Shown here: piece by piece, positions 33,295 through 40,645 of the stretch
Layout of the letters: each line of letters opens with the position of its first letter
Numbering within the stretch: position 1 is the stretch's first letter
From: Pseudacidovorax sp.
Lineage (GTDB): Bacteria > Pseudomonadota > Gammaproteobacteria > Burkholderiales > Burkholderiaceae_C
Reading direction: 5' to 3'
Assembly: GCF_017991995.1 (NCBI RefSeq)
Contig: NZ_JAGOPN010000014.1
Location: forward strand, 1 to 64,000
DNA length: 64,000 nt
The notes under the pieces: model-generated
The model's database searches: none
Seen by the model: only the letters and a program-made list of their open reading frames with translations
What the model was told of the DNA's origin: nothing
Position numbers and translations under genes: made by a program

Positions 33295-34662
33295 ATGTCC
33301 CGCAAAGTCTTCATCAAGACCTTCGGCTGCCAGATGAACGAGTACGACTCGGACAAGATGGCCGATGTCCTCGCCGCCGCCGACGGCTACGAGCCCACCC
33401 AGAACGTGGACGAGGCCGACCTGATCCTCTTCAACACCTGTTCCGTGCGCGAGAAGGCGCAGGAAAAGGTCTTCTCCGACCTCGGCCGCGTGCAGCACCT
33501 GAAGGCCAAGGGCGTGAAGATCGGCGTCGGCGGCTGCGTCGCCAGCCAGGAGGGCGAGGCCATCATTGCCCGCGCGCCCTACGTGGACGTGGTCTTCGGC
33601 CCGCAGACCCTGCACCGTCTGCCCGAGCTGCTGGCCCGCCGCGAGGCCGAGCGCCGGCCGCAGGTGGACATCTCCTTCCCCGAGATCGAGAAATTCGACC
33701 ACCTGCCGCCCGCGCGCGTCGAGGGCGCCACGGCCTATGTGTCGATCATGGAAGGCTGCTCCAAGTACTGCAGCTACTGCGTGGTGCCCTACACCCGCGG
33801 CGAGGAGGTCAACCGCCCGCTCGACGATGTGCTGGTCGAGGTGGCGGGCCTGGCCGACCAGGGCGTTCGCGAGGTCACGCTGCTGGGCCAGAACGTGAAC
33901 GCCTACCGCGGCAGGATGGGCGACACCGCCGAGATCGCCGACTTCGCCACGCTGATCGAATACATCGCCGAGATTCCTGGCATCGAGCGCATCCGCTACA
34001 CCACGAGTCACCCCAACGAGTTCACGCCGCGGCTGATCGAGACCTACGCCAAGGTGCCGCAGCTGGTGAGCCACCTGCACCTGCCGGTGCAGCACGGCAG
34101 CGACCGCATCCTGATGGCGATGAAGCGCGGCTACACCGCCATGGAATACAAGAGCACGATCCGCAAGCTGCGCGCCATCCGGCCGCAGCTGGCGCTGTCC
34201 AGCGACTTCATCGTCGGCTTCCCGGGTGAGACCGAGGACGACTTCGCGAAGATGATGAAGCTGATCGAGGACGTGGGCTTCGACGCCAGCTTCAGCTTCA
34301 TCTTCAGCCCGCGGCCCGGCACACCCGCCGCCGCGCTGCACGACGACACGCCGCACGAGGTCAAGCTCGCGCGCCTGCAGCACCTGCAGAAGACCATTGA
34401 CGACAACGTCCGGCGGCTGTCCGATGCGCTGGTCGGTACCACGCAGCGGCTGCTGGTCGAAGGGCCTTCCAAGAAGAACCCGGCCGAACTGATGGGCCGC
34501 ACCGACTGCTTCCGCGTCGTCAACTTCGAGGCGCCCGCGCGCCTGGTGGGCCAGATGGTGGACGTGACGATCACCCAGGCCCTCTCGCACACCCTGCGCG
34601 GCGAGGTGCTGACGCACGAGCATGACGGAGCCGGCGCCAAGCGCGCCGCGCAGGCCGCCTGA
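33295..34662 (+). CDS. miaB: tRNA-2-methylthio-N6-dimethylallyladenosine synthase
   Basis: Radical-SAM methylthiotransferase acting on i6A37 in tRNA. 455 residues (E. coli 474). N-terminal UPF0004 cysteines in [23 protein letters not shown] and VGGCVAS bind the auxiliary cluster. The radical-SAM motif is [15 protein letters not shown] (CxxxCxxC), and [12 protein letters not shown] and [12 protein letters not shown] follow. The C-terminal TRAM domain ends near [17 protein letters not shown]. The stop overlaps the start of glrK (TGATG), suggesting coupling. Confidence 0.97.
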
Positions 34663-36089
34663 TGTCGGCCGGCCGGCCACGCGCCCGCGGCTCCTTCCAG
34701 CAGTTGATGCTGGCCGCCTTTCTGGTGGTCACGGCGCTGGTGGTGGGCGTCGCGCTGCGCGCCGTCTTCCAGTACGACCAGCTCATCACGCAAAGCCGCG
34801 AGGCGGCGCGTCGGGCGCTGCTGCTCTCGGGTGCCGCCCAGTCGCTGGCCGAGCGCAGCGCGGCCATGGAACGCTCGGGCCGCCAGTCGCTGGTGCTCAA
34901 CGACGCCGTGCTGCGCCGCCGCTTCGCCGACGCGCAGAAGGATGCGCAGAACGTGGTGCAGCGGCTGGTCGACAACGGGCTGCTGCCGCAATCGGCCCAG
35001 CAATGGCGCGCCCAGATGGCCACCATCGAGGACCTGATGAACGGCGCGCCCGAGACGGCCCTGGCCCGCGAGGGCTCGATGGCGCTGCAGTTCCGCGAAC
35101 TGGATGCGCTCAACACCCAGCTCGCCCAGCAGGCGCAGATGCTGATCGAGGCCCAGAACAACGCCCTGGCCGACCGGCTGGAGGCCGCGCGGCGCCGGCT
35201 GACGCTGCAGGTGGTGGCGGCCAGCGGGCTGGCCGCGGCCCTGGCGCTGGCCTTCGGCATCTGGCTGGCGCGGCCCTTCAAGCGGCTGGAGCGCGCCATC
35301 GTGCGCCTGGGCGAGAACCGGCTGGACGAGCCCATCGACATCCGCGGCCCGGCCGACGTGCGGCGCGTGTCGCAGCAGCTGGACTGGCTGCGCCTGCGGC
35401 TGATGGAGCTGGACGCCGACAAGGCGCGCTTCCTGCGCCATGTGTCGCACGAGCTCAAGACGCCGCTGGCGGCGCTGCGCGAAGGCGTGTCGCTGCTGGA
35501 GGACGGCGTGACCGGCGAGCTCAACCCGGCCCAGCGCGAGGTGGCGCAGATCCTGCAACAGAACGCCGTGTCGCTCCAAAGCCAGATCGAGGCGCTGCTG
35601 CGCTTCAACGCCGCCGCCTTCGAGGCCCGCCAGCTCAAGCGCGAACGCTGCAACCTGGTCAAGCTGGTGCAGGAGCAGATCGACGCCCAGCGGCTGCAGT
35701 GGCAGTCGCACGGCCTGACCGTGCGGGTGGAGGGCGAGCCGGTGACAGTGATGGCCGATCCGGCCAAGCTGGGCACGGCGGTGGCCAACCTGCTGTCCAA
35801 CGCGATCCGCTTCTCGGCCCGAGGCGGCACCATCGCGCTGGCCGTCTCCAGCACCGGCGACACCGCCAGCATCGAGATCAGCGACGCCGGTCCCGGCATC
35901 GCGCCGGACGACCGCGACCGGGTGTTCGAGCCCTTCTTCCGCGGCGAGCGCCAGCCGGAGCACACCGTGAAAGGCACAGGCATCGGCCTGTCCATCGTGC
36001 AGGAGTACATTGCAGCCCATGGTGGCCGCATTGCGCTGCTGCCCACCGGCCCCGGCGCGCGATTCCGCATCGACCTGCCGCGCGGCTGA
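34662..36089 (+). CDS. glrK: Sensor histidine kinase GlrK (QseE-like)
   Basis: 475 residues, the same length as E. coli GlrK. TM1 LMLAAFLVVTALVVGVALRAV near residues 15-35; periplasmic four-helix region to about 175; TM2 LTLQVVAASGLAAALALAFGIWLA; HAMP (RPFKRLERAIVRLGENRLDEPI). H-box FLRHVSHELKTPLAALREG; N-box VANLLSNAIRFS; G1 ISDAGPGIA; G2 KGTGIGLSIVQEY. It heads the glrK-qseG-glrR set and is translationally coupled to miaB. It should phosphorylate GlrR in response to envelope or cell-wall signals. Confidence 0.88.
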   Translation: MSAGRPRARGSFQQLMLAAFLVVTALVVGVALRAVFQYDQLITQSREAARRALLLSGAAQSLAERSAAMERSGRQSLVLNDAVLRRRFADAQKDAQNVVQRLVDNGLLPQSAQQWRAQMATIEDLMNGAPETALAREGSMALQFRELDALNTQLAQQAQMLIEAQNNALADRLEAARRRLTLQVVAASGLAAALALAFGIWLARPFKRLERAIVRLGENRLDEPIDIRGPADVRRVSQQLDWLRLRLMELDADKARFLRHVSHELKTPLAALREGVSLLEDGVTGELNPAQREVAQILQQNAVSLQSQIEALLRFNAAAFEARQLKRERCNLVKLVQEQIDAQRLQWQSHGLTVRVEGEPVTVMADPAKLGTAVANLLSNAIRFSARGGTIALAVSSTGDTASIEISDAGPGIAPDDRDRVFEPFFRGERQPEHTVKGTGIGLSIVQEYIAAHGGRIALLPTGPGARFRIDLPRG

Positions 36090-36109: not shown

Positions 36110-36781
36110 ATGACGACCTTGTCCGTCCGCAGCCCTCTCCTTGCCGTTGCCCTGGTCCTGGCCGGGGTGCTGGCAGGCTGCGCCACCCCAGCGCCCACGC
36201 CGAGCGTGCCGGCCCCTGCGCCAGCCACCACGGCCAACCCACCCGTGCCGGCCACCCGGCCGGCCGTCCAGCCGGTGGAAGTGCAACCCGTCGCCCCAGC
36301 CACCCAGATGCAGTCGGCTGGCAACGGCATGGCAGCCAGTGGCTACGGCAGTGCCAGCAGCGAAGCGCTGTCCCGCATGCTGGCCTACGCCGACCGGGCC
36401 CGCAGCCTGCAGTCTGGCGAGGCGGCCGCGGAGATCGCCCGCATCGGCGACCCCGGCGACTCGGCCCCCCTGCAGATGCAGCTGGCCCTGGCGCTGGCGC
36501 AGACCCGCAACCCTGCCGATCTGGCGCGCGCCACGGCCCTGATGCAGCGCGTCGCCGGCAGCACGCAGGCCGAGGCCCAGCCGCTGCAGCCGCTGGCGCG
36601 GGTGCTGGCCGCCCGCTACCTGGAGCAGCGCCGCGTCGAGGACGACCGCGACCGGCAGGTGGCGCAGCTCAAGGAAGCGCAGCGGCGCATCGACCACCTC
36701 AATGACCGCATCGAGGCGCTGCGCGCCATCGAACGCAGCTTCGGCCGCCCGTCCAACGGCGCGGCGCGCCCCTCGCCCTGA
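36110..36781 (+). CDS. QseG-like lipoprotein
   Basis: 223-residue predicted lipoprotein. Signal peptide with lipobox LAGC (Cys24), then a Pro/Ala-rich linker to about residue 70, then a helical repeat region with QMQLALALAQTRNPADLARA and a C-terminal coiled coil (QVAQLKEAQRRIDHLNDRIEAL). Its position between the GlrK-type kinase and the GlrR-type regulator equals qseG/yfhG in E. coli (237 residues), an outer-membrane lipoprotein that works with the kinase. Primary-sequence identity to QseG is not obvious; assignment rests on synteny. Confidence 0.75.
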   Translation: MTTLSVRSPLLAVALVLAGVLAGCATPAPTPSVPAPAPATTANPPVPATRPAVQPVEVQPVAPATQMQSAGNGMAASGYGSASSEALSRMLAYADRARSLQSGEAAAEIARIGDPGDSAPLQMQLALALAQTRNPADLARATALMQRVAGSTQAEAQPLQPLARVLAARYLEQRRVEDDRDRQVAQLKEAQRRIDHLNDRIEALRAIERSFGRPSNGAARPSP

Positions 36782-36822: not shown

Positions 36823-38241
<1,419 letters not shown>

Positions 38242-38283
38242 GTCGTTGATTTGAAAAGGATTGGCCGCCACCCCTCGGCGAGT

Positions 38284-38301
38284 TGTCGGGCTGTGGCGAC
38301 A
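38284..38301. promoter_or_regulatory. GlrR-type site 2 (TGTC-N10-GACA)
   Basis: Second exact TGTC-N10-GACA (TGTC 38284-38287, GACA 38298-38301) in the glrR-opgH spacer, 67 bp from site 1 and about 129 bp upstream of the predicted start. Confidence 0.7.
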
Positions 38302-38363
38302 GATTCGGTGCTATTACGGCCGCGACGGCTGAAAACGCCAAGAATCAATCGAGAAAATCTCCG

Positions 38364-38376
38364 TAACTCGCTGATT
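38364..38376 (-). promoter_or_regulatory. IHF-like site
   Basis: On the minus strand AATCAGCGAGTTA matches WATCAANNNNTTR at all but one defined position. It lies between the GlrR sites and the sigma-54 promoter, in an AT-rich stretch, where IHF typically bends DNA. Confidence 0.35.
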
Positions 38377-38394
38377 TTCAACAATTAAATCGTG

Positions 38395-38411
38395 TTGGCA
38401 TGGGGATTGCC
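38395..38411 (+). promoter_or_regulatory. sigma-54 promoter upstream of opgH
   Basis: TTGGCATGGGGATTGCC: GG at 38397-38398 and GC at 38409-38410 are separated by exactly 10 nt, and the motif fits YTGGCACGRNNNTTGCW except two positions. Predicted transcription start is about 38422. Confidence 0.7.
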
Positions 38412-38422
38412 CCATAGCCTGC

Positions 38423-38626
38423 ATGACCCTCCTCACCACCCCCCCTGTCATCCTGCGTCCGCAGCGTGACGCCCTGCGTCGCAAGAACGCGCAGACGGCG
38501 CGCGCCCGCTCGACGCGGAGCCAGGCCCATGCGCCGGCACTCGCCGCCAGCGCCAGCGCGGACTGCGTCTTCAAGCGCCTCCCCGCCATCGGTGAGACCC
38601 CCCTTTCGAATTTCCAGCACTGGTAA
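38423..38626 (+). CDS. possible small ORF in the opgH leader
   Basis: 67-codon open frame starting at the predicted sigma-54 transcript start and ending 9 nt before opgH. The product is Arg/Ala-rich (LRPQRDALRRKNAQ, RSTRSQAHAPALAAS), without recognised homology. It may be a leader peptide coupled to opgH, or only part of a 214-nt untranslated leader. Confidence 0.3.
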   Translation: MTLLTTPPVILRPQRDALRRKNAQTARARSTRSQAHAPALAASASADCVFKRLPAIGETPLSNFQHW

Positions 38627-38635
38627 GGACTCGCC

Positions 38636-40645
38636 ATGAAACCGAACGAGTTTTCGCACCTGAAGGTCCTGACGCCCGAGCAGTTCCAGCCGCGCCGCCC
38701 TGCCGCCCGCGAGGAACGCCATCCCAACGCCGTCACTGCGCCCCCGATCAACCGCGGTTCCATGACGCCTCGCCCCTGGCGCGGTTTCTGGAACAGCATC
38801 GGCACCGCCCTCCTGCTCAAGATGGGCGCGGGTCGTGCCACCGCGGCCGCCCAGCCTGCCGGTCCGGTCCAGCCCTGGGAGCGCGCCGCCAAGCGCCGCC
38901 GACTGACCTTCACGATGCTGGCCCTGTTCAGCACCGTGCTGGCCTCGGCCCTGTTTGCCCAGGTGCAGCCCTACTACGACAACGCCTTCCTGGAATATGG
39001 CCAGATCGCGCTGTATGGCCTGCTCTCCGGCTGGGTGGTCACCGGCTTCGTGACCGCGCTGATGGGTTTCTACGTGTCTGTGCGTGGCGACAAGTACGCC
39101 CTGTCGGCCAAGCAGGTCGCCGACCATCCGATGAATCCGGAGGCCCGCACCGCGATCATCATGCCGATCTGCAACGAGGACGTGGCCACGGTGTTCGCCG
39201 GCCTGCGCGCCACCTGCGAATCGGTGGCCAACACCGGCCATGCGAAGCAGTTTGATGTGTTCGTGCTGTCCGACAGCTACAACCCCGAGATCGCCAAGGC
39301 CGAACGTGCCGCGTGGGAAGAACTGCGCGCCGCCCTGGCCCAGTCCTTTGCCGACAGCCCGAACAAGCCGCAGGTCGAGGTGTACTACCGCCTGCGCACC
39401 CGCCGCACGCACCGCAAGGCCGGCAACGTGGCCGACTTCTGCCGCCGCTGGGGCAAGGACTACCGCTACATGGTCGTGCTCGATGCCGACAGCGTCATGA
39501 GCGGCGACTGCCTGACCAGCATGGTCAAGCTGATGGAAGCCAATCCCACCGCCGGGATCATCCAGACCGCCACGCAGGCCATCGGCCACGTGACGCTGCA
39601 CGCACGCGCGCAGCAGTTCGCCAGCCGCGTGACGGGCCGCCTGTTCACCCTGGGCATGCAGTTCTGGCAGCTGGGGGAATCGCACTACTGGGGCCACAAC
39701 GCCATCATCCGCGTCGCGCCCTTCATGGAGCACTGCGCGCTGGCCCCGATCAAGGGCACGGGCGGCATGTCCGGCGGCATCATGAGCCATGACTTCGTCG
39801 AGGCCGCCCTGATGCGCCGCGCCGGCTACCACGTCTGGCTGGTGTCCGACCTGGTCGGCAGCTACGAGCAGCAGCCGCCCGATCTGCTGGCCGAACTGCA
39901 GCGTGACCGCCGCTGGTGCCAGGGCAACCTGCAAAACGCCCGCCTGATGGCCGAGCCCGGCATCCACCCCGTGCACCGCGCCATGTTCGTGACCGGCACG
40001 ATGGCTTATGTGTCCGCCCCGATGTGGCTGGCTTTCATGACCCTGGGCACCGCCCTGTGGCTGACCGGCTCGCGTCTGGTCCAGGACTGGGCCGTGCTGC
40101 CCATGGAGCTGGCCGGACTGTGGATCTGGACGCTGTGCCTGCTGTTCCTGCCCCGCATCCTAGGCGTGGCCGCGGTGTTCATGCGCGGTGAGCAGAAGAA
40201 CTTCGGCGGTGCGTTCAGCCTGTTCAAGAGCGCCGCGCTGGAAAGCGTCATGGCCATCGTGCAGGCACCCGTGCGCATGCTGGCCCACTCGCTGTTCGTG
40301 ATCGTCGCCCTGACCGGCCTCAAGCTGGAGTGGAAGTCGCCCCCGCGGGAAGCGGCCGCCGTGCCGTGGAGCGAGGCCTTCAACCGCCTGGCGCCAATGA
40401 GCGGTCTGGTGGCTGTGCTGGCCTGCGGCGTGGCGCTGATCGACGCCAGCGCGCTGGTGTGGCTCATGCCCGTCGGCCTGCCGCTGCTGCTGGCCATTCC
40501 CATGGCCGTGCTGACCAGCCGCATCGATGTCGGTGGCGTGATGCGCGAGCGTCACTACCTGCTGATTCCCGAGGAATCCCGGTCGCCCGCCGTGCTGCGC
40601 CGCGCGTGGGCCCACGCGGACCGACTGGCCCTGAAGGCAGCCTGA
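38636..40645 (+). CDS. opgH: Glucans biosynthesis glucosyltransferase OpgH/MdoH
   Basis: Inner-membrane GT2 enzyme that polymerises UDP-glucose into the backbone of osmoregulated periplasmic glucans. 669 residues, shorter than E. coli OpgH (847) at both ends. N-terminal TMs around RLTFTMLALFSTVLASALFA and GQIALYGLLSGWVVTG. Catalytic elements: IIMPICNEDV, VLDADSVMSG, SHDFVEAALMRRAGYHVWLVSD and QRDRRWCQGNLQ (QxxRW). C-terminal TMs follow. No opgG is adjacent, unlike the usual opgGH operon. Preceded by GlrR sites and a sigma-54 promoter; followed by a terminator. Confidence 0.93.
   Translation: MKPNEFSHLKVLTPEQFQPRRPAAREERHPNAVTAPPINRGSMTPRPWRGFWNSIGTALLLKMGAGRATAAAQPAGPVQPWERAAKRRRLTFTMLALFSTVLASALFAQVQPYYDNAFLEYGQIALYGLLSGWVVTGFVTALMGFYVSVRGDKYALSAKQVADHPMNPEARTAIIMPICNEDVATVFAGLRATCESVANTGHAKQFDVFVLSDSYNPEIAKAERAAWEELRAALAQSFADSPNKPQVEVYYRLRTRRTHRKAGNVADFCRRWGKDYRYMVVLDADSVMSGDCLTSMVKLMEANPTAGIIQTATQAIGHVTLHARAQQFASRVTGRLFTLGMQFWQLGESHYWGHNAIIRVAPFMEHCALAPIKGTGGMSGGIMSHDFVEAALMRRAGYHVWLVSDLVGSYEQQPPDLLAELQRDRRWCQGNLQNARLMAEPGIHPVHRAMFVTGTMAYVSAPMWLAFMTLGTALWLTGSRLVQDWAVLPMELAGLWIWTLCLLFLPRILGVAAVFMRGEQKNFGGAFSLFKSAALESVMAIVQAPVRMLAHSLFVIVALTGLKLEWKSPPREAAAVPWSEAFNRLAPMSGLVAVLACGVALIDASALVWLMPVGLPLLLAIPMAVLTSRIDVGGVMRERHYLLIPEESRSPAVLRRAWAHADRLALKAA

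Follow-up and report, generated by a model that had tools for sequence, protein, structure and literature searches.

A GlrK-GlrR-IHF-sigma-54 module is predicted to drive directly a leaderless message encoding a small protein and then OpgH in the Pseudacidovorax sp. DNA analysed here (64,000 nucleotides of contig NZ_JAGOPN010000014.1, hereafter the window). As an explanation of the whole locus, this reading was assigned a probability of about 0.9. Envelope stress sensed by GlrK, together with a QseG-like lipoprotein that would take part in the local control, would lead to phosphorylation of GlrR, which would bind two sites designated UAS1 and UAS2. IHF would bend the DNA both in the stretch between UAS1 and UAS2 and in that between UAS2 and the promoter, allowing the AAA+ domain of GlrR to open sigma-54 RNA polymerase at a -24/-12 promoter. 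Transcription would start at the AUG at 38423 or no more than about 2 nt from it, and the leaderless mRNA would encode a protein of ~67 aa followed by OpgH. In relatives, the same promoter would serve opgG-opgH or opgH directly.

Gene neighbourhood of opgH

The following genes are present at the locus.

34662..36089, + strand: glrK-like sensor histidine kinase, 475 aa (Pfam HAMP, HisKA, HATPase_c)
36110..36781, + strand: qseG-like lipoprotein, 223 aa (by position; lipobox-like start by eye)
36823..38241, + strand: glrR, sigma-54-dependent response regulator, 472 aa (best NCBIfam model GlrR, NF011695)
38423..38626, + strand: conserved small ORF, 67 aa, unannotated, predicted leaderless first gene, with coding constraint
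38636..40645, + strand: opgH (mdoH), glucan glucosyltransferase, 669 aa (NCBIfam NF003960)

The glrK product is 31% identical to E. coli GlrK. The lipoprotein gave no Pfam or NCBIfam match and has 25% global identity to E. coli QseG, a negligible similarity; the order glrK-qseG-glrR was found in the window and in relatives, with a middle gene weakly like E. coli QseG. The local GlrR is 58% identical to that of E. coli and contains the Pfam domains Response_reg and Sigma54_activat, the C-terminal HTH being recognized by alignment with E. coli GlrR alone. The sequence RNRTEFY in the HTH is common to both proteins; the initial annotation described a nearly identical recognition helix. The score with NF011695 was 610 bits compared to 417 bits for the runner-up model, and the curated equivalog cut-off of 763 bits was not reached; thus, the protein is regarded as a GlrR-like homologue and not as a certified equivalog. 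OpgH scored 1230 bits with NF003960 (MdoH equivalog), above the cut-off of 829, and is 99% identical to OpgH of Pseudacidovorax sp. NFM-22. One rpoN was found in the genome. A lone opgG/opgD-like gene (G000 C3:119387-120877), 41% identical and unlinked to opgH, was also found. Since neither an exact UAS, a UAS pair nor a strict promoter is present in its 4.5-kb locus, this gene was rejected as a second GlrR target.

Predicted control elements at the end of glrR and ahead of opgH

The following elements were predicted, with the sequence WATCAANNNNTTR, which we take to be the IHF consensus, used to call IHF sites.

38217..38234, + strand: UAS1, predicted GlrR site inside the 3' end of glrR, exact TGTC-N10-GACA
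38239..38251, - strand: predicted IHF site 1, overlapping the glrR stop codon, exact match to WATCAANNNNTTR
38284..38301, + strand: UAS2, predicted GlrR site, exact TGTC-N10-GACA, 67 bp from UAS1
38364..38376, - strand: predicted IHF site 2, one mismatch to WATCAANNNNTTR
38396..38411, + strand: predicted sigma-54 -24/-12 promoter TGGCATGGGGATTGCC, GG 38397-38398, GC 38409-38410

The positions of both exact sites and of the promoter, with 10 nt between GG and GC, agree with those first reported, and for the IHF-like site mentioned there an exact match and a one-mismatch match were found. Placement of the sites between glrR and opgH holds for UAS2 and the promoter but not for UAS1, which lies within the glrR frame upstream of the stop codon at 38239-38241. 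The distance from the start of UAS2 to the promoter GG is 113 bp. With at least two UASs, an IHF site, a -24/-12 promoter and the spacing of glmY, the interval has the features of a glmY-type promoter.

Exact TGTC-N10-GACA sequences occur 4 times in the window compared to 0.67 expected. The genome contains 61 compared to 42 in the reversed control, a mild enrichment so near the control that single sites mean little. Pairs of exact UASs within 200 bp are expected ~0.12 times genome-wide, and a site followed by N80-110 and TGGCN7TTGC was found once in the 6.24-Mb genome, at the opgH locus, with 0 in the control. The promoter pattern alone is weak, with 8 occurrences in the window compared to 4.1 expected and 4 of 100 shuffles reaching 8. 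A third exact TGTC-N10-GACA, at 39075-39092 within opgH, was rejected as a GlrR site; it was readable in 40 of 80 relatives (4 exact, 34 with one mismatch and 2 with more), a comparison by which it looks codon-driven. Also rejected were a sigma-70 promoter ahead of opgH, a consensus scan of 38150-38700 (a weak test) having found no sigma-70-like site, and an sRNA in the glrR-opgH interval, a scan of 37800-39200 having given no Rfam match up to E 1.

Conservation of the module among OpgH relatives

The search of relatives proposed in the initial annotation was performed with the best 80 of 587 OpgH relatives. In 78 of them (the named loci), glrR precedes opgH, whereas L043 and L063 are short contigs; since the loci were chosen by OpgH similarity, the set is biased towards glrR-opgH linkage. 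The full module was defined as two UASs with at most one mismatch, 60-72 bp apart, and TGGY-N8-TGC 75-145 bp downstream. Of the 78 named loci, 74 carry it downstream of glrR, with a mean of 0.0 in shuffled sequences. The control search inside glrR gave a match in 1 of 77 named loci, which is the displaced module of L075 itself in a read-through frame.

The spacing between the UASs is 67 bp in 66 of the 74 module loci, 65 bp in 7 and 68 bp in 1, and that from the start of UAS2 to GG is 113 bp in 54. For IHF site 1, 70 module loci have an exact match, compared to a shuffled expectation of 0.1, and the site occupies one of two adjacent offsets in all 74. IHF site 2 matches exactly in 38 loci, with one mismatch in 32 and with two mismatches in 4, and its distance from the promoter is the same in 69. 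The full module within the set limits is missing from L027, L060, L075 and L077; a wider look revealed the UAS pair and promoter in L027, L060 and, further upstream, in L075, and one UAS with the promoter in L077. Behind the module in the named loci are opgG-opgH, opgH, or the small ORF and opgH, with opgG lying between glrR and opgH in 30 of 78. The comparison of sequences demonstrates the module, its position and its link to glrR and the opg genes.

Predicted leaderless start

The first ATG is located 12 nt past the -12 GC in 71 of the 78 named loci and 13 nt past it in 7; in the window, the A of the ATG at 38423 follows the C of the promoter GC by 13 nt. The ATG behind the promoter opens opgG in 30 of 30 opgG-type loci, those printed having signal-peptide-like starts, and opens the small ORF in 42 named loci. 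It opens an N-terminally extended OpgH in L049, L054, L069, L070 and L073, and likewise in L012, where the promoter match is aberrant. In another family (L154-L156), opgH also starts at the promoter-proximal ATG. The exceptions are L109 and L110, which have no such ATG, L104, in which it does not open opgH, and L088-L090, in which opgG starts ~50 nt further on. By reading, the BON and EF-hand-like outputs described below start ~36-88 nt downstream, many with Shine-Dalgarno-like sequences. In E. coli glmY, the annotated 5' end lies 13 nt downstream of the equivalent C, a spacing identical to that of the ATG in the window. Since the ATG lies 12-13 nt after GC, where glmY has its 5' end, the message of the opgH locus is predicted to be a leaderless sigma-54 mRNA starting at its start codon.

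Small ORF ahead of opgH

The small ORF is 66-70 codons long and open in 42 of 42 loci, with a stop in frame +1 in 42 and in frame +2 in 13. Among 17 diverged representatives, the mismatch at the three codon positions was 0.32/0.28/0.45 (0 of 10000 permutations), a comparison that demonstrates coding constraint. The pooled pN/pS was 0.53, and 0.37 to 0.39 for Pseudacidovorax versus Xenophilus only; hence, the constraint is moderate. The conserved core of the protein is DCVFKRFPAIGDTP, with the motif DCVFKRxPAIGDTP. The protein gave no Pfam or NCBIfam match, and structure prediction yielded neither a confident fold nor any secondary structure (mean pLDDT 61.6, pTM 0.15). A Shine-Dalgarno-like AAGGA precedes the opgH start at 38636.

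The small ORF was detected at E<=1e-26 in 7 of 250 family genomes, comprising the window's own, three of the same genus, two of genus g461 and G355; weak matches in five further genomes were rejected as the motif is absent. No opgG lies between glrR and opgH in the loci in which the small ORF was found. In L049, which does not have the small ORF, an apparent C-terminal remnant of opgG was seen by eye between the promoter and opgH, and opgG was therefore probably lost there. At the G355 locus (L103/L212), the small ORF, UAS pair and promoter are kept with no opgH behind them, and no opgH was found elsewhere at E<=1e-60 in this assembly, which is 92% complete and fragmented.

Co-occurrence of GlrR and OpgH in the family

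A less biased sample comprised 60 genera of the family, with GlrR detected at E<=1e-150 in 15 and OpgH at E<=1e-60 in 14. Both were present in 11 genera, GlrR alone in 4 (G355, G326, G328 and G339), OpgH alone in 3 (G342, G346 and G350) and neither in 42 (Fisher p 1e-6, not corrected for phylogeny). Either opgH or opgG-opgH follows glrR in 11 of the 11 genera having both. The full module was found in the set search range in 10 of the 15 GlrR-bearing genera (shuffle mean 0.0; glrR-internal control 0 of 15). It is also present in L106, further downstream than the set range; in L108, the UAS pair is present with no promoter match, in L112 and L113 a promoter accompanies UASs spaced 78-79 bp, and L111 has the promoter only. 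A second GlrR of G335 (L117, 55% identical) has none of these module elements. The ~5.3 kb upstream of the three glrR-less opgH genes contains no exact UAS, strict promoter or UAS pair (0 of 3); in one of them, L146, a loose single UAS and a loose promoter are located inside a long reading frame.

The initial annotation had proposed that the GlrK-QseG-GlrR system drives OPG synthesis. This proposal is supported by conservation of the module, co-occurrence and constant adjacency of glrR and opgH, absence of the module at the three glrR-less opgH loci, and the likeness in layout to glmY with a 58%-identical GlrR.

Relation to known GlrR targets

QseF/GlrR with IHF activates E. coli glmY, which has three UASs (TGTN12ACA), IHF and sigma-54, as stated in the part of PMC6075780 consulted, and the UAS consensus TGTCN10GACA is quoted in an excerpt of PMC8745638. 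In E. coli K-12, the exact UASs of glmY are at -230, -197 and -134 with GG at -26; an exact IHF site is 2 bp after the middle UAS and a one-mismatch site is at -58. The spacing of the last two UASs is 63 bp compared to 67 bp at the opgH locus, and the last UAS starts 108 bp from GG compared to 113 bp. Both loci have an IHF site just past the first UAS of the pair, on the same strand, and a sigma-54 promoter. They differ in that glmY is an sRNA gene upstream of glrK with a third UAS in E. coli, whereas the opgH locus has a glucan synthase gene downstream of glrR, the small ORF and the predicted leaderless start. Thus, the same layout appears to serve a different gene here.

The E. coli rpoE P2 promoter, also activated by QseF/GlrR in the account excerpted from PMC6075780, resembles the opgH locus in GlrR/sigma-54 control of an envelope-stress output. 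A table in the portion of PMC10100675 consulted places opgG under RpoE and GlrR among the regulators of rpoE, and E. coli GlrR may therefore reach opgG indirectly, via RpoE, whereas the link at the window locus would be direct. Among the literature matches listed, PMC10100675 was the only paper to contain both GlrR and periplasmic glucan, and it lists them separately. The two-component systems Rcs and EnvZ-OmpR are linked to OPG in Dickeya and Yersinia (excerpts of PMC4726272 and PMC7013093), these being regulators other than GlrR with sigma-54 unmentioned in the excerpts. A link between GlrR/QseF and opgGH was not stated among the literature matches listed, with subscription papers mostly outside their coverage, nor was a GlrR-OPG link in the excerpts of PMC12194929, PMC3162934, PMC11722255 and PMC11594007.

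Alternative explanations

The GlrR-driven promoter could be real with the small ORF or an RNA as its main product, opgH being transcribed mostly from another, sigma-70, promoter. The position of the small ORF as first gene and its coding constraint are consistent with this explanation, as is its retention in G355 with the UAS pair and promoter in the absence of a detected opgH, although the incompleteness and fragmentation of that assembly weaken the case. In other loci, opgG or opgH lies immediately next to the same promoter, and the scans for sigma-70-like sites, albeit a weak test, and for Rfam families found none, which together make the explanation improbable. That the sites serve feedback of GlrR on its own operon, with opgH a bystander, is suggested by the location of UAS1 within glrR and by the module lying next to glrR in the majority of loci read, most of which were, however, found via glrR or opgH. 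The promoter is directed away from glrR and towards opgH and abuts opg start codons, and at L096 the pattern precedes a BON gene with no glrR in the 3-kb locus; autoregulation is thus very improbable. Chance motifs kept through close kinship would account for single TGTC-N10-GACA sites near the genome background and for a promoter pattern that is weak alone, but hardly for fixed spacing over diverged sequence, a mean of 0.0 in shuffles, fixed IHF positions and the similar layout of E. coli glmY, and this explanation has the slightest likelihood.

Direct control of opgH by GlrR is hence preferred, and the sequence comparison supports a control module of known type that acts on a new direct target and is shared by many genera; its message is probably leaderless, and the small protein is new. 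If true, GlrK-QseG-GlrR would, outside Enterobacteria, act directly on a structural output, namely periplasmic glucan synthesis. Regulation of OPG synthesis becomes testable in the genetically tractable Variovorax, and the opgGH promoter is a conserved candidate for leaderless sigma-54 messages.

Module outside the family

Like the leaderless ATG and the small ORF, the outputs of the module in other families were omitted from the initial annotation. When 300 genomes of the order were scanned with the pattern, 20 gave a match, including the window's own, compared to 6 matches in 5 genomes for the control. Of these 20 loci, 14 lie directly behind glrR, with 7 before opgG/opgH and 7 before BON-type small secreted-looking proteins. 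Pfam confirmed BON for 7 of 7 proteins tested (L087, L092, L093, L094, L096, L097 and L114), representing five of the seven glrR-adjacent loci of the order scan plus L096 and, from the family sample, L114; L095 and L098 were assigned by similarity. The scan of 276 genomes of the class gave a match in 11, with glrR in 2 (L118 and L124) of 12 new loci.

GlrR searches matched 61 of 150 order genomes and 37 of 184 class genomes, and the best-scoring loci included 57 that were new and 55 that were usable, L149 being from the window's family and several duplicating places from the pattern scan. The full module was found in 13 of the 55 (shuffle mean 0.0; glrR-internal control 0 of 55), the remaining 42 having no full module as searched. 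The genes behind it are BON (L151, L152), BON-like (L161, L169), opgH (L154-L156), EF-hand-like (L159, L180) and glycine-zipper-like (L164, L171); L162 and L184 are the other module-bearing loci. The EF-hand and glycine-zipper labels were assigned by eye, as were other output names unless from tblastn or Pfam. Since the module precedes other genes in other families, opgGH is a lineage-specific output, and GlrR alone does not imply OPG control.

A broader proposal, given even odds, is that a portable GlrR-IHF-sigma-54 cassette has been rewired by lineage to envelope effectors (glmY RNA, opgGH, BON and EF-hand-like proteins), with a leaderless sigma-54 mRNA conserved in the opgGH lineages; in one group of these, the message would begin with the new small protein, a possible effector of OpgH. 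If so, one promoter layout would have been kept while the target gene was exchanged.

The module or pattern was also seen before small EF-hand-like secreted-looking proteins (DxDxDG by eye) in L121, L124, L125, L159 and L180, the genes in L124, L159 and L180 sitting behind glrR. In another order of the class (L118/L195), glrR is followed by an 82-aa ORF and then opgG, the spacing of the UASs being 84 bp.
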